A DNA stretch of 54,353 bases from Gillisia hiemivivida (GTDB lineage: Bacteria > Bacteroidota > Bacteroidia > Flavobacteriales > Flavobacteriaceae). The notes below the pieces were generated by a model. It searched no databases, was not told the DNA's origin, and saw only the letters and a program-made list of their open reading frames with translations. Made by a program: the position numbers and the translations under genes. Of the stretch, positions 35,326 through 46,257 are shown piece after piece. The DNA lies in assembly GCF_007997295.1 (NCBI RefSeq), contig NZ_VORY01000022.1:1-54353 (forward strand). Reading direction: 5' to 3'. How positions within the stretch are numbered: the stretch's first letter is position 1; each line of letters starts with the position of its first letter.

Positions 35326-36903
35326 TTATTTCTGATTCAGTAGATCCATCAAATTAACATCGTTTCCTAGTAAGACTTCATTCGAATTTATTCTACCATC
35401 CAGAGAATCATTTTCTAGTTTAAGTACTCCTCGTGGGCATACAGCAGCACATATTCCACATCCAACACAGCTGGATCTTACAATACTTTCCCCTTTTTGA
35501 GCATAGGCTCTTACATCTATTCCCATTTCGCAGTAAGTAGAGCAATTCCCACAAGAGATACACTGTCCGCCGTTGGTAGTAATCCTGAATTTTGAAAATA
35601 AGCGTTGCTGCATTCCTAAAACTGCTGCCATTGGGCATCCAAATCTACACCACACCCTATTGCCAAAGATGGGATAAAAACCAACTCCAATCACCCCAGA
35701 AAATGCTGCTCCTATTAAGAAGCCGTACCACGAGCGCAACTGGTATGCCTGAAAAAAGAAAATTTCAGAATTCCCGCTAAAATAGTTGATCCCAATAATA
35801 GCCATAATGATCACAAAATATCCAATAGCTCCATATTTGGCATCTTTGGCAAGTTCCTGTCTTTTAAAGATCATAATAAGTGCAAAGAGCAAGGTTAAAA
35901 TTCCGGCCGATCCCCAGAGGAAAACATCTTGTGTGAGCCAGGTAACTTTGGAATCATCTCCCAAAAAGGAGTATACCACCGCGATGGTCATAACTACAAC
36001 AAAAACCAATACACTATGGATCACCCAACGTTCTACTTTCCAGGCAAATTGCGATTTATCTGATAAGTGTCTATAGGGGTCCCCGGCAGTTTCTGCTAAT
36101 CCGCCGCAACCGCAAACCCAGGAACAGTACCAGCGTTTTCCATATTTATAGGTTAAAATAGGGGAGATCACAAATATTGAAAGTATTCCAAAAGCGAACA
36201 TCATCAAACCTACAGAGCCGGAAGAAAAGAATTCATCTAATTTATACCCTGCGAAAAGGTCATAGTTCAACGGCCAGAGATTCGCGGGATTGAAATACGG
36301 CTGATTTAAACGGATAAGGATCTCCGGAATCAAAAATGCAAATCCCAGCTGAAAGAACATAACAGAAAATGTCCTTAAGATCTCGTAGTTATTATTGCGG
36401 TATTTCAGAATAAATTTATAACCAAAGATGAGGATGGCAAGCGTGTAGAGCGTTCCATAAACAAACCACTGGCTGGCCGGATTACCACTTATAAGCTTAC
36501 TAAGAGGGTCAAAAAGGGAAATAACACCGGTATTTTCTCCTTCGCTATTTAATCCCAAATACTCCGGAAACCAATAAAGGACTATATAAAAAAGCGTAAG
36601 CCCGATCCCTAGAAACCAGGCCGATAATCCGCGATTTGTTAATGATTTAAACCAGACTCCGTCGTTTTTAATACCCACGGGTTTTCCCCTATATGCATCG
36701 TTCGCAAAAACGATAGTTCCTCCAGCAATTAGCCCTAGGGACAGACTAAGAAACAGGGTTTTGTTAGGAAAATTGACATTGGTAAGAGCCAGTAAAAGAA
36801 TGAATAATCCCAGCAGGCCCAAAGCCGAAGCTATTTTTTGAGTTGTGGAAATTGAAGCCGGGGCATCTCCGGTCATGGACATATTATGTTCTATTTTACT
36901 CAT
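35326..36903 (-). CDS. Membrane 4Fe-4S electron-transfer protein (NapH/NosR-like)
   Basis: A 525-residue membrane protein with about nine hydrophobic segments. Cytoplasmic cysteine motifs are WYCSWVCGCGG, RVWCRFGCPMAA, CISCGNCSTYCEMG and CVGCGICAAVCPRG; the last two are classic 4Fe-4S ferredoxin sites. The CxxxCG-type loop motifs are typical of NapH/NosR/RdxA-like electron-transfer proteins. It overlaps the FAD oxidoreductase gene by four bases (ATGA), so they are probably a pair that moves electrons between NAD(P)H or quinol and an unknown acceptor, perhaps an arsenic species given the neighbours; that last step is inference. Confidence 0.87.
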   Translation of the reverse strand: MSKIEHNMSMTGDAPASISTTQKIASALGLLGLFILLLALTNVNFPNKTLFLSLSLGLIAGGTIVFANDAYRGKPVGIKNDGVWFKSLTNRGLSAWFLGIGLTLFYIVLYWFPEYLGLNSEGENTGVISLFDPLSKLISGNPASQWFVYGTLYTLAILIFGYKFILKYRNNNYEILRTFSVMFFQLGFAFLIPEILIRLNQPYFNPANLWPLNYDLFAGYKLDEFFSSGSVGLMMFAFGILSIFVISPILTYKYGKRWYCSWVCGCGGLAETAGDPYRHLSDKSQFAWKVERWVIHSVLVFVVVMTIAVVYSFLGDDSKVTWLTQDVFLWGSAGILTLLFALIMIFKRQELAKDAKYGAIGYFVIIMAIIGINYFSGNSEIFFFQAYQLRSWYGFLIGAAFSGVIGVGFYPIFGNRVWCRFGCPMAAVLGMQQRLFSKFRITTNGGQCISCGNCSTYCEMGIDVRAYAQKGESIVRSSCVGCGICAAVCPRGVLKLENDSLDGRINSNEVLLGNDVNLMDLLNQK

Positions 36904-38195
36904 AGCTGGTGCTGTTGAAGGTTTTCCTTAAAACTTTTAAAGATCTCTTTTTCGTGGTGTTTATAAAATTCAGGGTCAAAATTGGCTTGCTTTAAGTGAT
37001 CTATCACATAATCTACAGTTCTTTCCTCTGTAAGCCATTTATCAAAGGTTTCTTGTCTCATTCTAATTCCGAAGGTGTTAATTCCTACAAACTTCCTACT
37101 TCCTTCTTTATAATTTATGGTGATGCATTTTCTGCCAGCTTTGTGCTGCCAATGAAAATGTGCTTCTCCTTGCCTTGGTTCAGGAAAAACCCAACCATAA
37201 GTTTGATATTCTATATCAAAGAATTTTGCACTATTAAACCAATGTCCAGGATTGTATTCCATAGGGTTTCCACAAATTGTTTGAGCCACCACTTCGCCCA
37301 TCATTCTGCCGGTATACCAAACTGCTTCAACAGTTTTTCTTTCGCCTATTCCCTCATGCTGCTCTGCACAATCGCCAATAGCATAGATATTATCGTAATT
37401 TGTTTGAAGCGATCTATTCACTTTCACACCTTTACCGAGTTCTATTCCAGAATCTTTCAGAAAATTAATATTTGGGGAAACTCCTGCGGTAAGACCAACC
37501 AGATCGCACATAATTTCTTCACCAGTTTCTTCTACAATAACACTTTTTACTCGACCATTTTCGTCGGAAACTATTTCTTTTAAATTGGAATTTAATCTAA
37601 GTTCTATATGATGTTCTCGAATATGATTGTTGATTATTTCCGATTCTCCCGGCGGAAGTACGCCATTCCAAAAACTGGATTCCCTAACAAGTAAGGTCAC
37701 AGGAATATTTCTAGTGCTAAGCATTTCTGCAAGCTCAGAGCCTATAAGTCCGCCTCCTACAATGACTGCCTGTTTACAATTTTTGGTGTTTTCTTCTAAA
37801 AGTTCTATATCCTGTTTGGTAACCATTCCTTGAACCCCTTTGAGATCCTGACCTTTCCATCCAAATTTGTTATAATTGGAACCTGTGGCTATAATCAATT
37901 TATCGTAAGCCATAATTTCTCCAGATGAGAAAGTGAGCTGATTTATCTCAGGTTGCACCTGAGATACGAATGCATTTTTAAGTTCTATTCTGTTCTTTTC
38001 CCAGAACCAATCTTCATAAGGCTTTAAGTGATCCCATTTCATATGCCCCATATACACATACATAAGAGCCGTGCGAGAAAAGAAATGATCACTTTCTGAA
38101 GAAATTACTGTGATCCTTCTGTCAGATTGTTTTCTAATGTGTCTGGCGGCGGTAATTCCAGATATTCCATTGCCTATAATGACAATATGATCCAT
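36900..38195 (-). CDS. FAD-dependent NAD(P)-disulfide-type oxidoreductase
   Basis: A 431-residue flavoprotein. The FAD-binding N-terminus is IVIIGNGISGITAARHIRK, the NAD(P) fold is VIVGGGLIGSELAEMLS and the second FAD motif is YAIGDCAE. The layout matches rubredoxin/nitrite reductase-like enzymes without a redox-active disulfide. The C-terminal 110 residues form an extra domain. The start overlaps nothing upstream; the stop overlaps the 4Fe-4S protein by four bases. It is divergent from the DUF547 gene at 38313 (117-base gap), which probably contains both promoters. Confidence 0.9.
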   Translation of the reverse strand: MDHIVIIGNGISGITAARHIRKQSDRRITVISSESDHFFSRTALMYVYMGHMKWDHLKPYEDWFWEKNRIELKNAFVSQVQPEINQLTFSSGEIMAYDKLIIATGSNYNKFGWKGQDLKGVQGMVTKQDIELLEENTKNCKQAVIVGGGLIGSELAEMLSTRNIPVTLLVRESSFWNGVLPPGESEIINNHIREHHIELRLNSNLKEIVSDENGRVKSVIVEETGEEIMCDLVGLTAGVSPNINFLKDSGIELGKGVKVNRSLQTNYDNIYAIGDCAEQHEGIGERKTVEAVWYTGRMMGEVVAQTICGNPMEYNPGHWFNSAKFFDIEYQTYGWVFPEPRQGEAHFHWQHKAGRKCITINYKEGSRKFVGINTFGIRMRQETFDKWLTEERTVDYVIDHLKQANFDPEFYKHHEKEIFKSFKENLQQHQL

Positions 38196-38312: not shown

Positions 38313-39020
38313 ATGAAATATTTTTCCTTATTAATACTTCTAATTTCCAGCTTTTCATTTGCTCAGGAAACTTCAAAATTCTTTGATGCTTCCGATTCTT
38401 TTTTTAAGCAATATGTTAGTAATGGTAGGGTAAAGTACGCAGAAATAAAGCAGAATCCCAAGAATTTGCAGGAATTGTTGAGCCTTGCGAAACGAGTAAA
38501 AATTTCCACTGAAGACCCAGATGTCTATAAAGCTTTTTGGATTAATGCTTACAATATTGCCGTGATAAGTGGTATTGTTAAACAATTTCCCGTAAAATCT
38601 CCAATGGATATTGAAGGCTTCTTTAATAGAAAAAAACATAGTTTAGGGCAAAAATCGGTAACCTTAGATGATATAGAAAAGATACTTTTATTAGGGAACT
38701 ACCCTGATGAATCCAGGTTTCATTTTGTGCTGGTTTGTGCTGCTAAAGGATGCCCTCCTATAATTGCTGAAGCATATAGGCCAGAAACTTTGGAAAAGCA
38801 ATTACAACAACAAACCGTAAAAGCAATGAATTCTTCGGACTTTGTAAAGATCCAAAAGGATACGATATTGCTTTCAGAATTGATGAACTGGTATCAAAAA
38901 GATTTTACAAAGGAGGGTGTTAGTTTGATAGATTATATAAATAAATACAGGAAGACAGCAGTTCCTCCTAATTTAAAAATCGAATTTTATAATTATAATT
39001 GGGAGTTGAATGCACTTTAG
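38313..39020 (+). CDS. Secreted DUF547 protein
   Basis: A 235-residue protein with a signal peptide (LLILLISSFSFAQ) and a DUF547 domain. Characteristic segments are AFWINAYNIAVISGIVKQFP, the Cys/His region FHFVLVCAAKGCPPI and LMNWYQKDF near the end. The biochemical role of DUF547 is unknown; the conserved Cys and His suggest a cysteine-dependent enzyme. It overlaps the next gene by 11 bases. A paralogue lies at 40749-41558, so two DUF547 proteins flank the GH113-like gene within the arsenosugar locus. Confidence 0.88.
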   Translation: MKYFSLLILLISSFSFAQETSKFFDASDSFFKQYVSNGRVKYAEIKQNPKNLQELLSLAKRVKISTEDPDVYKAFWINAYNIAVISGIVKQFPVKSPMDIEGFFNRKKHSLGQKSVTLDDIEKILLLGNYPDESRFHFVLVCAAKGCPPIIAEAYRPETLEKQLQQQTVKAMNSSDFVKIQKDTILLSELMNWYQKDFTKEGVSLIDYINKYRKTAVPPNLKIEFYNYNWELNAL

Positions 39021-40071
39021 ATCTATTTCAACATTCATTAGGAGAAGGGCTTTAAATCTTCAATTTATCGTAATCATTAGCTTACTGATGGTGATAACAT
39101 CCTGCCAAGGGCAGAAGCAACAGGAAAAATTCAATGGGGTAAGTTTAGTGGCTTCCCGAGAATCTATTTCAAGTTCTCATATTAAACCTATTTTAGAGAT
39201 AAATTCTAATGCTGTAGCCGTTATGCCTTTTGGATTTATGGAAAGTTTATCCAGCCCCGACCTTAAATTCAATATTGAGCGGCAATGGGAAGGTGAGCGA
39301 TTGGAGGGTGCTAGAAAAACCACTCAGTTGTTACATTCTCAGGGTTTAAAAGTGATGATAAAACCACAGATCTGGATCTGGAAAGGTGAGTTTACAGGGA
39401 ATATAAAAATGACTTCTGAAGAAGATTGGAAGAAATTTGAAACGAACTATGAGGAATTTATTTTGTTGTATGCAAAAATGGCTGCTGAAGAAAATGTGGA
39501 ACTTTTTTGTATAGGTACAGAATTATATGAATTTGCGAATGAAAGAAAAGAATTCTGGGAGCAACTAATCACTAAAGTTAGAAAGATCTATAAAGGAAAA
39601 CTCACTTACGCCGAAAACTGGGATAAAGTGGAAAAGGTTAAGTTTTGGAATCGATTAGATTTTATTGGAGTAGATGCCTATTTTCCTTTAAGCGAGGGGA
39701 AATCTCCAAATATTGAAGAATTACGGGCTTCTTGGAAACCTTATAAGAGCCAATTAAGAGAGCTGTCCAATAAATATGATAGGAAGATCTTATTTACAGA
39801 GTATGGTTATAGAAACACCAATTATGCTACTCGACAACCTTGGGATTCTTCGAGAGAAGAAATTTCTATGAATTACGAATTGCAGTCTAATGCACTATCT
39901 GCCTTATATCAGGAATTTTGGAGGGAAGATTGGTTTTCTGGTGGATTCTTATGGAAATGGTTCCATAATCATGAACAAGCAGGCGGATTGGAAAACAATC
40001 AATTCACACCCCAAAATAAACCGGCTTTAAAAGTGGTAAAAGGTTTTTATGGAGGAATGGTCAGGGATTGA
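39010..40071 (+). CDS. GH113-like glycoside hydrolase lipoprotein
   Basis: A 353-residue TIM-barrel protein. After an N-terminal basic and hydrophobic stretch, MVITSC forms a lipobox (Cys about 32), so it is probably a lipoprotein. The barrel resembles GH113 beta-mannanases: FCIGTELYEF supplies the acid/base Glu and ILFTEYGYR the nucleophile Glu, with GGFLWKWF near the C-terminus. Its start overlaps the DUF547 gene by 11 bases and its end overlaps the convergent glycosyltransferase gene by 11 bases. Homologues often lie in arsenosugar loci of flavobacteria; a role in trimming a glycosylated arsenical is only a guess. Confidence 0.85.
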   Translation: MHFRSISTFIRRRALNLQFIVIISLLMVITSCQGQKQQEKFNGVSLVASRESISSSHIKPILEINSNAVAVMPFGFMESLSSPDLKFNIERQWEGERLEGARKTTQLLHSQGLKVMIKPQIWIWKGEFTGNIKMTSEEDWKKFETNYEEFILLYAKMAAEENVELFCIGTELYEFANERKEFWEQLITKVRKIYKGKLTYAENWDKVEKVKFWNRLDFIGVDAYFPLSEGKSPNIEELRASWKPYKSQLRELSNKYDRKILFTEYGYRNTNYATRQPWDSSREEISMNYELQSNALSALYQEFWREDWFSGGFLWKWFHNHEQAGGLENNQFTPQNKPALKVVKGFYGGMVRD

Positions 40072-40747
40072 TTCTACGTTTATAATATTGATGTAATTCT
40101 TCTGGAGAGGCTCCCCTAAGTCGTTTAATATAAATAGCGGCAAAACAAAACTGTAATTTCCAAACCCCAATTTCTTCATATCTGCGCGCCGAGGTGGTAA
40201 TTAATTTTGGAATTACTTTAAATTGGTTTTGATTGTAAAGCCTGCCAATAAATTCATTATCCTCATAAACCACAAAAGTTTCGTTGTAGCCACCGAGCTC
40301 CTTAAATAAGCTTTTGGTGATAAACAAGGATTGATCTCCTCCTCTGCAAGCCTTATGATTAAATTTCGTGAACCATCCCATCAAATTGAGCCACCAATGA
40401 TCCATATCAAACTTCATTTGAAAACAACCCGCTTTATTACCGGAGTTTATTTGATCCAGAATAGATTGGTCAAAGTTAGGAGGAGGGAAACTATCTGCAT
40501 GTAAAAAATAAAGGACATCAAATGTTGCTTTTTTCGCCCCTGTATTCATTTGTTTTGCCCTTCCTTTTTCAGAAGTAACATAAAAAACTCCGGAATACTC
40601 TTTTACAAGTTCCGGAGTTTTATCTGTGCTTCCGCCATCTACAACAATAATTTGATTATTGGTATAAGCAGAATTATTTTCAAGATAATCAAGTAGCCTT
40701 ATAATTCCGGTTTCTTCGTTTAAAACAGGGATAATAATGCTGATCAT
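40061..40747 (-). CDS. TIGR04283-type arsenosugar-associated glycosyltransferase
   Basis: A 228-residue GT2 enzyme: SIIIPVLNEETGIIRLLDYL, VVDGGSTDKT for nucleotide binding, LYFLHADSFPP for the metal site, and GGDQSLFITKSLFKELGGYNE toward the acceptor side. This short GT2 group (TIGR04283) is found with ArsM/ArsS loci and is named for arsenosugar biosynthesis. It starts one base after the DUF547 stop codon, so the two are co-transcribed. The sugar donor is not known from the sequence. Confidence 0.88.
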   Translation of the reverse strand: MISIIIPVLNEETGIIRLLDYLENNSAYTNNQIIVVDGGSTDKTPELVKEYSGVFYVTSEKGRAKQMNTGAKKATFDVLYFLHADSFPPPNFDQSILDQINSGNKAGCFQMKFDMDHWWLNLMGWFTKFNHKACRGGDQSLFITKSLFKELGGYNETFVVYEDNEFIGRLYNQNQFKVIPKLITTSARRYEEIGVWKLQFCFAAIYIKRLRGASPEELHQYYKRRINP

Positions 40748-40748
40748 T

Positions 40749-41558
40749 TTATTTTTGTTCGTTTAGATTCCAGTTATAATCTTTGTAAGTTACTGTAGTT
40801 CCATTAGCTATTTTCACATCAGAATATTTGTTGACGTAATCTATTATAGTTACCCCATCTTCAATAAAATCTTTTTTGTACCAGTCAAATATCGAAGACA
40901 ATTTAGCTGAATTTTTTGAGATCTCATTCTTATCTGAATTAATAAACTCCTTTGTAACTCTATCTAATTGCTCATTGATTTTAGCTGCGGTATAAGCTTC
41001 ATTCAATAATTTAGGACAAGAAATAGCGGCACAGTTAATTGCAAAATGTATTCTGGGTTCATTCATTTTTCTTAGAATACTGTTCTCTATACCACTCAAG
41101 GAAATTTTCACATCTCCGATAGTTATAATGTCTTTTGTCCAATTTCCATTGATGTCTTTAATGCTTTTTGTGGGATAGTTATTTAGAATAAGATCTACCG
41201 TATACGCATTATAAATATTGATATAATAAGCCAATTGTTCTTGAACAGACCAGTCTTTGGTAGGTTTTATTTTTGCGAGTTTCGAGAGATATGCATTTAG
41301 CTGCTCTCTATCTTTCATAAAACCTTTATAATCTACAAGTCCCTCTTTGGAAACGTGCTTTTTAAGCAAAGAATTCCATTCACTGTGGTCTACATTTACT
41401 TTAGAATTTACTGTTGTAGATGATAATTCTGAAGGAGCTTCATTTGTAGGCAAGCCTTTACTCGACAAACCTGCTGAAGAAATTAAATTGCAACTACTCA
41501 TGGTGGTTACCAAAGCCGCAAATGCAACTAAAAGGGTATAATATTTAGACTTTTTCAT
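40749..41558 (-). CDS. DUF547 lipoprotein
   Basis: A 269-residue DUF547 protein. The N-terminus LLVAFAALVTTMSSCNL ends in a lipobox (Cys about 23), so it is probably an outer-membrane or periplasmic lipoprotein. The domain shows YYINIYNAYTVDLILNNYP, IHFAINCAAISCPKL with conserved Cys/His, and IFDWYKKDF. It is clearly related to the protein at 38313-39020. It is followed after one base by the TIGR04283 glycosyltransferase gene and preceded by about 230 bases of repeats that separate it from arsM. Confidence 0.88.
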   Translation of the reverse strand: MKKSKYYTLLVAFAALVTTMSSCNLISSAGLSSKGLPTNEAPSELSSTTVNSKVNVDHSEWNSLLKKHVSKEGLVDYKGFMKDREQLNAYLSKLAKIKPTKDWSVQEQLAYYINIYNAYTVDLILNNYPTKSIKDINGNWTKDIITIGDVKISLSGIENSILRKMNEPRIHFAINCAAISCPKLLNEAYTAAKINEQLDRVTKEFINSDKNEISKNSAKLSSIFDWYKKDFIEDGVTIIDYVNKYSDVKIANGTTVTYKDYNWNLNEQK

Positions 41559-41785
41559 AAGTATGTTTTAAACATTAATAAAATTCGCTTCTTTTCACTA
41601 TCGGTAATCTTGTTGAGGAGCCTTGTAAATAAGACATTTCGACAAGCTCAGTGTGACAAGTATAATAAAATGTCATTCCGACAAAGGAGGAATCCCTTAG
41701 AATCTAGAGATTCTTCACTCCATTTCATTACGTTCAGGATGACAAAAAAAGTTGTCAAGCTGAGCCTGTCGAAGCTTATTTATTT
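41559..41785. repeat. Cluster of short flavobacterial repeats between arsM and the DUF547 gene
   Basis: Repeat-like units are seen: catttcgacaagctcagtgt, gtcattccgacaaaggagga, cgttcaggatgac and gtcaagctgagcctgtcgaa. The first and last are inverted copies of each other (caagctcag/ctgagcctg region) and could form a long hairpin. They may end the arsM transcript or arise from repeat mobility. No gene is visible. Confidence 0.6.
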
Positions 41786-42781
41786 CTAACAACATCCCCC
41801 ACCATCATAGTGGAAAGTAGATTCGCTAAAGTAGATATCATCTCTTCCTAAATCCTGTAAGGCAGCAGCAGTTTTATCGCAAATAGCCAAAGGCTGATTT
41901 TTTAGTAAAATGTGTCCTTTTTTATCATCAAAAAATGCTTCATCACCATAATAAATAGCAGCTTTTCCTGTAAAGATACAGGGTCCGTCTTCTGGCATTG
42001 GATCTTTAATAGCAGCGACTTCTATAGATTCTATATAGATCAATTCTTGTGTTGGGTAATTTTTTGGGTCTAAAATTCTGTAAGGCTTACGAGCTCTAAT
42101 TTCTATAGTTCCAAAACCAGCATCAGTAAGCGCTTTTACATATTCAGCAATAGGTAAACTTCCACTTAAACACAAAGCTCTTAGTCTAGAATCGTTTCTT
42201 AATTCCTCATTCATTGGTTGCTCACAAGTAGGATCGCTCATCACCAATTTTCCATGTGGCTTTAAAACCCGGTACATTTCTTCAATGGCTTTTTTGAGAT
42301 CTTCAGCTTTAAAAATATTGAATAAACAGTTTTGAGCTGCTACATCTACCGTATTATCTTCTACCGGTAAATTAAGAGCATCTCCTTTTTTCAAGGTTAC
42401 AAAATCACTTTTAAACCAAGGGTTAGCAGCTTCTGCTTCAACAAAATTCTTGCGAGAAGCTTCCAACATTTCGTCTACCATGTCTATCCCGATAACACCA
42501 CCTTTTTCACGATTAAAATATGCGAATTGAAGTAATTCCATTCCACCACCAACGCCTACATATAGCATTTTTGGATTATTAGAAAGATCTCTTGCATGCA
42601 CAGTACTCCCACAACCATAGTTCATTTCCTGCATAATTTTAGGGATCTTTAAACCAGGTAATTCCCAAACAGGATTTGTTGTACAACATAAGCCAACATC
42701 TGGTGTTAAGGCTGCCTCTTTATAAACATCGTAAGTAGTATCTAGATAACTCATTTCTTCTCTTTTATTAGGGTGATTCAT
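41786..42781 (-). CDS. arsM: Arsenosugar-type arsenite methyltransferase ArsM
   Basis: A 331-residue SAM-dependent methyltransferase. The SAM motif is MLYVGVGGGMELLQFA, with GVIGIDMVDEML and DVAAQNCLFNIFK. Cysteines expected to bind As(III) occur in GLCCTTNP near the N-terminus, in NYGCGST, in AQNCLF and in a C-terminal GGGCC tail. Family members methylate arsenite to mono- and dimethyl forms. This clade (with the Cys-Cys tail and ArsS nearby) is annotated as the arsenosugar type. It is the last gene before the repeats at 41.6 kb and follows the purine phosphorylase gene after 40 bases. Confidence 0.9.
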   Translation of the reverse strand: MNHPNKREEMSYLDTTYDVYKEAALTPDVGLCCTTNPVWELPGLKIPKIMQEMNYGCGSTVHARDLSNNPKMLYVGVGGGMELLQFAYFNREKGGVIGIDMVDEMLEASRKNFVEAEAANPWFKSDFVTLKKGDALNLPVEDNTVDVAAQNCLFNIFKAEDLKKAIEEMYRVLKPHGKLVMSDPTCEQPMNEELRNDSRLRALCLSGSLPIAEYVKALTDAGFGTIEIRARKPYRILDPKNYPTQELIYIESIEVAAIKDPMPEDGPCIFTGKAAIYYGDEAFFDDKKGHILLKNQPLAICDKTAAALQDLGRDDIYFSESTFHYDGGGCC

Positions 42782-42821
42782 TTTTAAGTAAGTTGTAATT
42801 ATTCAGTTTTAATTACAAGAC

Positions 42822-43634
42822 TTAAATGTTTTTAATCAATTCTTTAAATAACAAGATCATATCTGGCTCTGCTTTTTCTGCCATGGCGATGATCTCACTT
42901 ATATTTACGGGTTTTAAGTCGTCTGGGTTTCCTTCATCCGTAATTACTGAAATGGCAGACACCGGAATATTTAGATGATTAGCTACAATTACTTCTGGAA
43001 CTGTACTCATTCCTACAGCATCGGCTCCAATAATTTTTAAGTAGCGGTATTCTGCTCTGGTTTCTAATTGCGGACCAAGAACTGAAGCATACACGCCTTT
43101 ATGAAGCTTTATAGCGTGTTCTTTCGCAATCTTTTCTATAGCTGCATTCATTTTTGCATCATAAGGTGCACTCATATCTACAAAACGTTCTCCTAATTTC
43201 TCAACCCCTTTAAATGCTAATGGAGATCCTCCTTGAAGATTAATATGATCATCTATCAACATTAATTCTCCCTTTTTGAAATCTAAATTTATAGATCCAG
43301 AAGCATTAGAAACCAATAATTTTTTAATACCTAAACGTTCCATTACTCTTACCGGAAAAGTTACATCTTGTAAAGAGTAACCTTCATATAAATGAAAGCG
43401 GCCTTGCATTACAATTACTTTCTTTCCTTCTAAATTTCCGAAGATCAATTTTCCTTTGTGAAACTCTACGGTAGCAGTTGGGAAATGAGGAATATGATTA
43501 TAGCTGACTTCAGCTAAAATTTCTATCTCATCAGGAAGTTTCCCTAATCCAGTTCCTAAAATAACTCCTATCTCGGGAGCATAAAAACCTTTATCTTTTA
43601 AGTAATCTGTAGTTTCTTGTATTTGATTCGTCAT
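42822..43634 (-). CDS. Purine nucleoside phosphorylase (class I, trimeric type)
   Basis: A 270-residue phosphorylase. Motifs include GVILGTGLGKLPDEI (phosphate-binding), MQGRFHLYEGYS, GVYASVLGPQLETRAEYR and AVGMSTVPEVIVANH, then ISVITDEGNP with the purine-binding region. The family splits purine nucleosides into base and ribose-1-phosphate. Here it lies five bases after the TIGR04282 glycosyltransferase stop side of the operon and before arsM. In this pathway it could remove adenine from the 5'-deoxyadenosyl arsenical made by ArsS, leaving a phosphorylated arsenosugar; that step is inferred from context. Confidence 0.92.
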   Translation of the reverse strand: MTNQIQETTDYLKDKGFYAPEIGVILGTGLGKLPDEIEILAEVSYNHIPHFPTATVEFHKGKLIFGNLEGKKVIVMQGRFHLYEGYSLQDVTFPVRVMERLGIKKLLVSNASGSINLDFKKGELMLIDDHINLQGGSPLAFKGVEKLGERFVDMSAPYDAKMNAAIEKIAKEHAIKLHKGVYASVLGPQLETRAEYRYLKIIGADAVGMSTVPEVIVANHLNIPVSAISVITDEGNPDDLKPVNISEIIAMAEKAEPDMILLFKELIKNI

Positions 43635-43639
43635 ATTCT

Positions 43640-44251
43640 CTATTGAAAAAATTGTTGAAAAGCGCTATGTTCTTTGATATCACTAAAATAATCTACATCA
43701 TTTTTAGCCTCTAAAAGGACTTTGTTCTCTTTGTCTAAATCTTGTAAAGTATCTTTTAATACGGTATTGGTTCCCCATTCTTTATTAGCAAATAGAGCAG
43801 GTTTCAACTTGCTCATTCCTAATAAATAATAACCGCCATCTTCCGCAGGTCCAATTACAAAATCGTTATTGTCTAATTTTTTGAAAGCTTCCATTAAGTC
43901 TTCGGAAGTGATATCGTACATGTCACTCCCAATAATTATAATATTAGAATATCCATTTTTAAACCCCGCAGCAAATGCATGTTCCATTCTCTCTCCAAGA
44001 CCTTGTCCTACTTGTTGCTTCTTATTGTAAATGGATGCATCCCAGATATCATTCTCATGAATTTGTTCTGAATAATAAACTTCTTTGGTGATGGGTAAAG
44101 ATTCGGTAATCGAAACAGTATGGTCTAATAAGAATTTGTAGATATCTAAAGCAGTTTGATCTCCCAGGTCTTTTGCAAGTCTGGTTTTTACTTTGCCTAA
44201 CTCAGGATTTCGGGTAAAAATGAGGAGTAAATTTTTTTGATCCAAATTCAT
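43640..44251 (-). CDS. TIGR04282-type arsenosugar-associated glycosyltransferase (DUF2064)
   Basis: A 203-residue protein of the CofC-like nucleotidyl/glycosyltransferase fold. It has LLLIFTRNPELGKVKTRLAK at the N-terminus, IIIIGSDMYDI at the metal site and VIGPAEDGGYYLLGMSKL. The group (TIGR04282) recurs in ArsS/ArsM loci. It may activate or transfer the sugar-phosphate produced by the phosphorylase encoded five bases downstream. The reaction has not been fixed by sequence alone. Confidence 0.88.
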   Translation of the reverse strand: MNLDQKNLLLIFTRNPELGKVKTRLAKDLGDQTALDIYKFLLDHTVSITESLPITKEVYYSEQIHENDIWDASIYNKKQQVGQGLGERMEHAFAAGFKNGYSNIIIIGSDMYDITSEDLMEAFKKLDNNDFVIGPAEDGGYYLLGMSKLKPALFANKEWGTNTVLKDTLQDLDKENKVLLEAKNDVDYFSDIKEHSAFQQFFQ

Positions 44252-44266
44252 TAGAATTTTAAAGAA

Positions 44267-44776
44267 TTATGGTTTGTAAACCTTTTCGCCTTTGTTCAAA
44301 TATTTTGTCCAATGCTTAGAAAAGGCATGGATTTTTTGAGTTTCATTATTAGAAGAATCGTAGACGCTGTAGCCTTTGTTCATCCATTCAAAAATCCCTC
44401 CATAAAGGTTCTTTATGTTTGTATATCCTGCATCTTTAAGTTTTTCTGAAATATTTTCAGACCTAATCCCTAAAGAGCAATAAACAACAATTGGAACACT
44501 CTTATCTTTAATTTTTGAAGTAACATTTTTAGCTGAAAAATTATTATAGCCTACATAAATTGAATTTTTAAGATGACTTACCTCAAACTCTTCTTTTTCT
44601 CTAGCATCTAGAATAAAGACTTTTTCATTATCACTTTGCATCTTTAGCTCTTCCACAGAAATATAAGGAATACTGTGAGAGTTATATTTAGATAATAATT
44701 TATCCAGAGATTCCTGAGCATTTATTAGCCCGAGTTGAAATATGAAAAAGAGTAAAAAGCCTTGTTTTATGGTCAT
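44267..44776 (-). CDS. Exported rhodanese-like protein
   Basis: A 169-residue protein with a signal peptide (FLLFFIFQLGLINAQ) and one rhodanese domain. The active-site loop is VVYCSLGIRSENI with the catalytic Cys, and FILDAREKEEFEVSHL is the typical CH2A motif. Rhodaneses transfer sulfane sulfur; arsenate-reducing variants exist. Its place between arsS and the TIGR04282 gene suggests a role with thiols or arsenic redox in the periplasm, but this is inference. Confidence 0.88.
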   Translation of the reverse strand: MTIKQGFLLFFIFQLGLINAQESLDKLLSKYNSHSIPYISVEELKMQSDNEKVFILDAREKEEFEVSHLKNSIYVGYNNFSAKNVTSKIKDKSVPIVVYCSLGIRSENISEKLKDAGYTNIKNLYGGIFEWMNKGYSVYDSSNNETQKIHAFSKHWTKYLNKGEKVYKP

Positions 44777-44794
44777 ATTAATATAAAACTAAGA

Positions 44795-45853
44795 TTATGT
44801 AACTGTTCCTTGACAACTACTTCCTGCACCTGCAGTACAACCATAGCAGTGTTGGGAAATAATGATATTTCTATCATTTAAAAGATCTTCATTATAATCG
44901 CTGATATGTTGAACTTTACTGTCCACTTTTAGACCTAACATCTGGTTGAAATCACAATCATATAACCAACCATCCCAACTAATAGAAATAGTATTGGTGC
45001 ACATTACATTTTCTACAGCGGTGGGGTTGTAGGCTTCAACAAGTGCATACATATAATCTTCATAATTTTCTGAAGCTATTAGATATTCCAAAAATCTACT
45101 GATAGGAAGATTAGTAATTGCGAATAAACTATTAAAATCTATATTGAAATCTTCTTTTAACGCAACTTTAAAGTCATTTTGTAAGGCTTCTTGATTTGTT
45201 GGCAAAAACGCTCCTGAAGGATTATAAACCAAATCTAACTTTAAACCAGTTCCTTCTTGAGCATATCCAACAGCGTTAAGCATTTGTAAAGCTTTTATGG
45301 ATTTATCAAAAACACCCTCTCCACGTTGCTTGTCTGTCTTATCTCTTTTATAAAAAGGAAGAGAAGATGCCACATGAACTTTGTGCTTTTTGAAAAATTC
45401 TGGCAGATCGTGATATTTCTTATTGGCCAAAATAATGGTAAGGTTGGATCTTACAATAAAATCTTTAATCCCTGCTTTTGAAGCTTCTTCTACAAACCAT
45501 CTAAAATTAGGATTCATTTCCGGGGCACCTCCAGTAAGATCTAGTGTATGCGCTCCTGTATTTCTAATAACCTCAAGACATTGCTCCATAGTTTCTATAG
45601 TCATGATCTCTTTGCGATCTGGGCCAGCATCTACATGACAATGGGAACATACTTGATTACACATATAGCCTAAATTTAACTGGAGAATTTCCAGTTTTTT
45701 AGGTTTTAAGGGGAAGTGATCTGTTTCGGCTATTTTATCTTTAAACAATGGCAATTCTCCTTTTTTGAAGATTCCGTTGCTTAAAAATTTTAATTGGTTG
45801 GCAGGGTTAGAAAGATCGTCTTCTCTCGCTGCCAATGATTTTAATAAAGCCAT
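44795..45853 (-). CDS. arsS: Arsenosugar biosynthesis radical SAM enzyme ArsS
   Basis: A 352-residue radical SAM protein. The cluster motif CNQVCSHCH (CxxxCxxC) is in a context LNLGYMCNQVCSHCHVDAGP, and DLTGGAPEMNPNF is the SAM-binding GGE-like strand. The C-terminal domain carries further cysteines: CTNTISISWDGWLYDCDFNQ and CYGCTAGAGSSCQG. This is the pattern of ArsS (formerly a radical SAM/Cys-rich family). ArsS is reported to place a 5'-deoxyadenosyl group on methylated arsenic, giving the arsenosugar precursor. It is second in the minus-strand operon, 68 bases after the AhpD-like gene. Confidence 0.93.
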   Translation of the reverse strand: MALLKSLAAREDDLSNPANQLKFLSNGIFKKGELPLFKDKIAETDHFPLKPKKLEILQLNLGYMCNQVCSHCHVDAGPDRKEIMTIETMEQCLEVIRNTGAHTLDLTGGAPEMNPNFRWFVEEASKAGIKDFIVRSNLTIILANKKYHDLPEFFKKHKVHVASSLPFYKRDKTDKQRGEGVFDKSIKALQMLNAVGYAQEGTGLKLDLVYNPSGAFLPTNQEALQNDFKVALKEDFNIDFNSLFAITNLPISRFLEYLIASENYEDYMYALVEAYNPTAVENVMCTNTISISWDGWLYDCDFNQMLGLKVDSKVQHISDYNEDLLNDRNIIISQHCYGCTAGAGSSCQGTVT

Positions 45854-45921
45854 ATATTTTTTAATTCACTATTATAAAAAAACAAACTGGTAGGAATAAT
45901 TAAAATGCTGCACCCAGCAAA

Positions 45922-46257
45922 TTACATGCTAAGTTTATCGTATTTATTCATCATTTGAACTCCATGAACCAAGGTGGCGCCACTTTTAATTGCAGCTCCA
46001 ACGTGCACAGCTTCCATCATTTCTTTCTTATCTATACCTCTTTGCAAACCGTCCTTTGTATATGCATCTATACAGTAAGGGCATTGTACTACATGGGAAA
46101 CAGCTAAAGCAATTAATGATTTTTCACGAGCAGAAAGAGCGCCTTCTTCAAAAACTTTTCCATAATAATCGAAAAATTTAGTGCCTAACTCTTCATTCCA
46201 TTCGGAAATATTTCCAAATTTTCTTAAGTCGGCAGGATCATAATAGGTTTTAGACAT
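45922..46257 (-). CDS. AhpD-like carboxymuconolactone decarboxylase family protein of the arsenosugar operon
   Basis: A 111-residue AhpD-like protein with the redox pair CPYC (in VVQCPYCIDAYTKDG) and a downstream helix EAVHVGAAIKSGATLVHG. This group is called arsenosugar biosynthesis-associated peroxidase-like protein. It is the first gene of the operon and so probably defines the promoter. Its CxxC could reduce arsenic(V) or peroxides; which is unknown. Confidence 0.88.
   Translation of the reverse strand: MSKTYYDPADLRKFGNISEWNEELGTKFFDYYGKVFEEGALSAREKSLIALAVSHVVQCPYCIDAYTKDGLQRGIDKKEMMEAVHVGAAIKSGATLVHGVQMMNKYDKLSM

Follow-up and report, generated by a model that had tools for sequence, protein, structure and literature searches.

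The 54,353 bp window analyzed here (Gillisia hiemivivida contig NZ_VORY01000022.1, positions 1–54,353) carries at bp 38313–46257 what is, as judged from its genes, an arsenosugar-type biosynthesis cluster with a predicted product. The cluster type is known, since NCBIfam already labels five of its families (NF038099, TIGR04167, TIGR04169, TIGR04282, and TIGR04283) as arsenosugar biosynthesis. An earlier note on the window, made from the sequence alone, had placed an arsenosugar core here; all of its genes are open reading frames and all of the families it named score over their NCBIfam cut-offs, so that the observation is right, if mostly known in kind. What can now be added is comparative evidence that a purine nucleoside phosphorylase (PNP) of the cluster acts in the pathway, a probable change of role for the TIGR04282 protein from glycosyltransferase to nucleotidyltransferase, and an ArsS-linked import set in some relatives.

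In the proposed route, ArsM methylates arsenite and the radical S-adenosylmethionine (SAM) enzyme ArsS, on which the key paper is said to be Cheng et al. 2021, then adenosylates the arsenic, both being chemistry known in outline from other systems. Excerpts of PMC12159101 describe a radical SAM enzyme that adenosylates arsenic. The cluster PNP would phosphorolyze the ArsS nucleoside to adenine and 5-deoxy-5-dimethylarsinoyl-ribose-1-phosphate, thereby supplying the sugar-1-phosphate needed by the TIGR04282 enzyme, which would nucleotidylate it to a nucleoside diphosphate (NDP)-arsenosugar; the GT2-type TIGR04283 protein would finally move the arsenosugar to an acceptor, for example glycerol or a lipid head group. 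With an inverting PNP, a retaining nucleotidylation and an inverting GT2 enzyme, this series would end in a β-riboside, and arsenosugars are β-ribosides. The AhpD-like, rhodanese, and DUF547 proteins would be accessory. We infer the steps after ArsS, and the route as stated has perhaps an even chance of being correct. A fuller proposal, in which the route is complete, the PNP is dedicated to it, NDP-5-deoxy-5-dimethylarsinoyl-ribose is a new activated sugar for TIGR04283, and some relatives import arsenicals through an ArsS-linked SusCD-SSS system, is clearly more tentative.

The minus strand carries eight genes at bp 40061–46257, in the order AhpD-like, ArsS, rhodanese, TIGR04282, PNP, AsSugarArsM, DUF547, and TIGR04283. 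The intergenic gaps from AhpD to ArsM are 68, 18, 15, 5, and 40 bp, with 227 bp between ArsM and DUF547 and 1 bp between DUF547 and TIGR04283. The DUF547 and GH113-like genes at bp 38313–40071, the two leftmost of the range that had been described, are on the plus strand. Family calls are profile scores compared with the curated NCBIfam cut-offs: 438.9 bits for ArsS (bp 44795–45853; TIGR04167, cut-off 300), whose radical SAM cysteines form a CX3CX2C motif at residue 65 (CNQVCSHC), 567.7 bits for the arsenosugar-type arsenite methyltransferase ArsM (bp 41786–42781; NF038099, cut-off 400), 237.2 bits for the TIGR04283 GT2-type glycosyltransferase of the predicted final step (bp 40061–40747; cut-off 182), and a narrowly passing 298.1 bits for the PNP (bp 42822–43634; TIGR01700, cut-off 293.35). 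Other genera have this gene order too, which is therefore not due to chance; the closest named ArsS relatives among the matches listed are in Christiangramia and Zunongwangia (89% identity).

The distribution of these genes was followed in a phylum sample of 296 genomes and in a family sample of 149 genomes from 148 genera of the same family as the window. In the phylum sample ArsS exceeds its cut-off in 121 genomes and AsSugarArsM in 20, every one of which has ArsS; 101 of the 121 ArsS-positive genomes are without an AsSugarArsM over cut-off. Eighty ArsS loci were taken from 79 of the 120 other ArsS-positive genomes (39 genomes from family f17 and two from f37 were left out, and some of the fetched stretches are short). 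An AhpD-like gene is present at 77 of the 81 loci made up of these and the window, and AhpD-ArsS is therefore a wide core to which this type of ArsM is a restricted addition. At 10 of 14 loci from the window's family, the centres of ArsS and a PNP are no more than 9 kb apart, and at an eleventh (L080) they are slightly further apart.

The family sample carries most of the evidence. ArsS is found in 111 of its genomes, TIGR04282 over cut-off in 118 and PNP in 133, the last two covering all 111 ArsS-positive genomes, and AsSugarArsM in 86, again all ArsS-positive. In 82 of the 86, PNP and ArsM share a strand and are no more than 600 bp apart; PNP is equally close to TIGR04282 in 103 of 111 ArsS-positive genomes, compared with 5 of 22 PNP-bearing genomes that lack ArsS. 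In 22 ArsS-positive genomes the strand of ArsS carries no PNP within 12 kb of it (some have one nearby on the opposite strand); PNP adjoins TIGR04282 in all 22 of these and ArsM in 16, and therefore tracks TIGR04282 and ArsM even where ArsS is separate. Eighty named ArsS loci make up a second set, which overlaps the first (at least five of its contigs equal earlier ones in length) and is not an independent sample; it has PNP in 48 loci (42 of the 67 with at least 7 kb downstream), adjoining ArsM in 37 of the 40 that hold both.

In alignments that include solved PNPs, the window PNP has Leu, Glu, Asp, and Ile where the human enzyme has Phe200, Glu201, Asn243, and His257, with the human numbering transferred by motif. 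In work on human PNP and methylthioadenosine phosphorylase (MTAP), a hydrophobic residue at 257 reportedly favors 5′-modified nucleosides and Asp at 243 favors adenine. According to excerpts of PMC9916683, Glu201 and Asn243 act at the 6-oxopurine and His257 is listed in the active site, and the Asn243 and His257 of 6-oxopurine-specific enzymes are replaced in the window PNP by Asp and Ile; Phe200 and His257 surround the inhibitor part that replaces the sugar (PMC10226123, in part). As far as an alignment can indicate, the active site fits a 5′-modified nucleoside. Among 99 PNPs typed from ArsS-positive genomes (91 of 111 in the family sample plus eight others), all 98 that are readable have L/E/D followed by I or V, as do all 47 in the second, overlapping locus set (one unreadable row was dropped from each) and the five PNPs beside TIGR04282 in genomes without ArsS. 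Eighteen PNPs from elsewhere divide into ten of type F/E/D/H and eight with L/E/D and I, V, or L. The two types form separate clades, each with support of 100, in a quick tree from which G289 (truncated) and G435 (broken PNP gene) were left out (PNP pieces below 150 bits were dropped as well); ArsS-negative members are scattered within the large clade, as expected from repeated loss of ArsS.

Genus g2 of the phylum sample has three ArsS-positive and 14 ArsS-negative genomes, and the cluster-type PNP is present in all three of the former and in none of the latter. By profile scores the three also carry an ordinary PNP, the cluster type being an extra copy; six of the ArsS-negative genomes have the ordinary PNP alone and eight have no match at E ≤ 1e-50. 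In g2, then, the cluster PNP is present or absent along with the arsenic genes (in three positive genomes only), and another gene can do the ordinary salvage.

Several observations weigh against the proposed route. Outside the window's family, a PNP of this kind lies within 9 kb of ArsS at none of 67 loci, some on short stretches, and the PNP type is unreadable there because the two PNP profiles give nearly equal scores for any one gene. Genome counts and Fisher values take no account of shared ancestry, and 25 of the 111 ArsS-positive family genomes have no AsSugarArsM. Conversely, the cluster PNP type occurs in 13 of the 22 PNP-bearing genomes without ArsS, beside TIGR04282 in five (G182, G312, G330, G397, and G419) and elsewhere in eight. 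Four of the five were read (L182, L183, L184, and L185) and have rhodanese, TIGR04282, PNP, and TIGR04283 together, with DUF547 in three; these are either relics or a module with another substrate. Asp at 243 is common to both PNP types, the Glu201 equivalent is kept in the window PNP, and two solved PNPs (4lna and 4m1e), for which we know of no arsenic connection, likewise have Leu at the His257 position, so neither residue 243 nor residue 257 proves arsenic use. Finally, TIGR01700, which the window PNP narrowly passes, is a model for inosine/guanosine-specific PNPs; only 76 of the 149 family genomes pass it. The link between phosphorylase and ArsS, on which the earlier note had let its proposal stand or fall, thus holds throughout the family and is not seen at the 67 loci from other families, and the phosphorolysis of the adenosyl arsenical that it suggested is favored by the PNP residues and the family-wide linkage and weakened by the fact that the link is not universal.

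The main rival is that the cluster PNP is a 5′-deoxyadenosine/methylthioadenosine phosphorylase that clears SAM by-products; its place in the operon would reflect a possible release of 5′-deoxyadenosine by ArsS, and the arsenical would keep or lose its adenine in some other way. Besides the cluster PNP, the window genome has just two PF01048 proteins, one a PNP of the DeoD type and the other uridine-phosphorylase-like. All three fall short of the cut-offs for methylthioadenosine nucleosidase and phosphorylase, and salvage by the cluster PNP is therefore a real rival; the 13 ArsS-negative genomes that retain the PNP type also agree with it, and residues that admit a 5′-modified adenosine suit it equally. 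However, the PNP adjoins ArsM and TIGR04282 and not merely ArsS, the 14 ArsS-negative g2 genomes manage without the cluster type, and the MTAP model TIGR01694 gives the window PNP only 93.9 bits (cut-off 274.85), so this explanation seems unlikely, if still a serious one. It is considerably less probable that the PNP is an ordinary purine-salvage enzyme in the operon by happenstance. It does pass TIGR01700, no other trimer-type PNP was found in this genome, and almost every genome of the phylum sample has a PNP match (279 and 280 of 296 with two PNP profiles), but the Phe200 and His257 positions are altered in all 98 readable cluster PNPs, three g2 genomes and G326 have an ordinary PNP besides, and the PNP adjoins ArsM in 82 of 86 genomes.

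If, as is preferred here, the cluster PNP phosphorolyzes the ArsS nucleoside, the next enzyme would activate the resulting sugar phosphate. The TIGR04282 (DUF2064) protein (bp 43640–44251, minus strand; 216.3 bits against a cut-off of 134) bears the family name of glycosyltransferase, but it is probably a CofC-like nucleotidyltransferase, an activity predicted mainly from its fold. Its predicted structure, built with 46 sequences, has a predicted local distance difference test score (pLDDT) of 95.4. The first-ranked Foldseek match is 3cgx, an uncharacterised member of the same family, and ranks 2–8 are 3-phospho-D-glycerate guanylyltransferase, Rv2983, and MM2497 (E 1e-8 to 2e-7), the latter two of which we take to be FbiD and CofC; IspD, GlmU, and other nucleotidyltransferases follow, and the first glycosyltransferase appears at rank 29, with four among the best 50 of 412 matches at E ≤ 0.001. 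K22, R24, D110, D185, and D187 are invariant in the 46 sequences. The sole other NCBIfam model that matches the protein is that of CofC (TIGR03552), with 32.6 bits against a cut-off of 105, and the protein is therefore not filed as CofC. On the other side, a GT-A-like fold is common to many glycosyltransferases, as the 412 matches illustrate, and for a superfamily that includes them the modeled fold is good but not final evidence of nucleotidyl transfer. The suggestion that both glycosyltransferases use the arseno-ribose-1-phosphate does not fit this reading, as the TIGR04282 protein looks like a nucleotidyltransferase that could instead make the donor for TIGR04283, and the database name glycosyltransferase is put in question.

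The remaining genes of the minus-strand run encode an AhpD-like protein (bp 45922–46257; TIGR04169, 199.2 bits against a cut-off of 120) with a CPYC motif, a rhodanese-domain protein (bp 44267–44776; NF045521, 210.8 bits against 145) with a CSLGIR motif and a hydrophobic N terminus that looks signal-peptide-like by eye, and a DUF547 protein (bp 40749–41558) whose N terminus, also judged by eye, is lipoprotein-like. The predicted model of the last has a pLDDT of 90.4, and a fold search of the PDB with it gave no hit at E ≤ 0.001. A second DUF547 protein (bp 38313–39020) lies on the plus strand with the GH113-like gene (bp 39010–40071), a conserved neighbor, and both DUF547 proteins have invariant cysteines within a CA-x-x-SCP stretch. 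Further to the left are an FAD/NAD-dependent oxidoreductase (bp 36900–38195, minus strand), a membrane 4Fe-4S protein distantly like NapH (bp 35326–36903, minus strand), and two more GT2-type genes. Homologs of the oxidoreductase and 4Fe-4S genes are also found beside ArsS at four loci in f24 and one in f28, which suggests that the two proteins might supply electrons to ArsS or AhpD.

The 227 bp spacer between ArsM and DUF547 (bp 41559–41785, no strand) contains a 22-nt inverted repeat at bp 41638–41773 (86% complementary), the core of which has four matches in the window at ≤2 mismatches, compared with 0.26 expected (none of 100 shuffles reaches four), and looks like a dispersed repeat. This repeat-bearing spacer stands where many relatives have a gene of the fatty-acid-hydroxylase family that is missing here; it lies between ArsM and DUF547, mostly directly before DUF547, and is weakly similar to the ornithine lipid hydroxylase OlsE (for example, L213:8440–9333). 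The gene is within 12 kb of ArsS at 12 of 24 loci without ArsM and 11 of 23 with it, and its product could act on a lipid-linked product. In one relative, G134, a PHO4-family transporter gene is found between ArsM and DUF547 (L214:6133–7251).

Some relatives have an additional module near ArsS. Sets of SusC, SusD, SSS symporter, and metallophosphoesterase genes occur at L211:8552–15461 and L175:6846–13758 (the latter in G404, of the window's own genus), and one genome of f5 and one of f10 likewise have the set no more than 12 kb from ArsS. The symporter is present in 20 of the 149 family genomes, all of them ArsS-positive, and within 10 kb of ArsS in 19; it is commoner among ArsS-positive genomes that lack AsSugarArsM (9 of 25) than among those that have it (11 of 86; Fisher 0.015). 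Some relatives may thus import their arsenical through the SusCD-SSS set. That the cluster as a whole serves uptake and breakdown or remodeling of external arsenosugars, with PNP and TIGR04282 acting in the salvage direction on incoming adenine-free arsenical sugars, is the least probable of the alternatives, since, whatever these symporter sets and their skew toward genomes without AsSugarArsM lend it, the window genome has no match to the SusCD-linked symporter at E ≤ 1e-100, 91 of the 111 ArsS-positive family genomes are without the symporter, and the window has ArsM and ArsS, enzymes that build.

Synthesis by the route proposed above is the preferred function of the cluster, and the phosphorylase and the re-assigned nucleotidyltransferase, if true, would open two missing arsenosugar steps directly to in vitro assay. 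Because arsenosugars are prominent among the organic arsenicals of seaweeds, the route matters both for arsenic cycling in the sea and for food safety. In the portions of the open-licence PMC literature that a search returned, no PNP was tied to arsenosugar synthesis, no nucleotidyltransferase role was given to TIGR04282 there, and no account was found of the passage from adenosylated arsenical to finished arsenosugar.

Among known systems, the cluster most resembles the NCBIfam arsenosugar set, all five families of which score over cut-off within this one locus; that set does not name PNP, rhodanese, or DUF547 as members, and it files TIGR04282 under glycosyl transfer, a name that is repeated where genomes are used to infer arsenosugar synthesis (PMC13077682, in part). 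Arsinothricin biosynthesis (ArsQML) likewise combines radical SAM formation of a C–As bond with an ArsM-type enzyme (excerpts of PMC12159101; PMC8552651), but the group transferred is 3-amino-3-carboxypropyl rather than adenosyl (PMC12159101, as excerpted), and the arsinothricin ArsM model scores 103.4 bits here against a cut-off of 500. With the trimeric PNPs (TIGR01700; 4lna, 4m1e, and 8swt) the cluster PNP shares the fold family, the predicted phosphorolysis, and the Glu201 equivalent, and it differs in carrying Leu in place of Phe200 and Ile in place of His257, although the trait at 257 is not unique to it (4lna and 4m1e). The TIGR04282 protein differs from the CofC/FbiD-type guanylyltransferases in scoring below the CofC cut-off and in its putative sugar-1-phosphate substrate; it shares with them and with 3-phospho-D-glycerate guanylyltransferase (7p97) the fold and the conserved Lys, Arg, and Asp residues, and a TIGR04282 gene has already been called fbiD in print (in the available text of PMC8801600).

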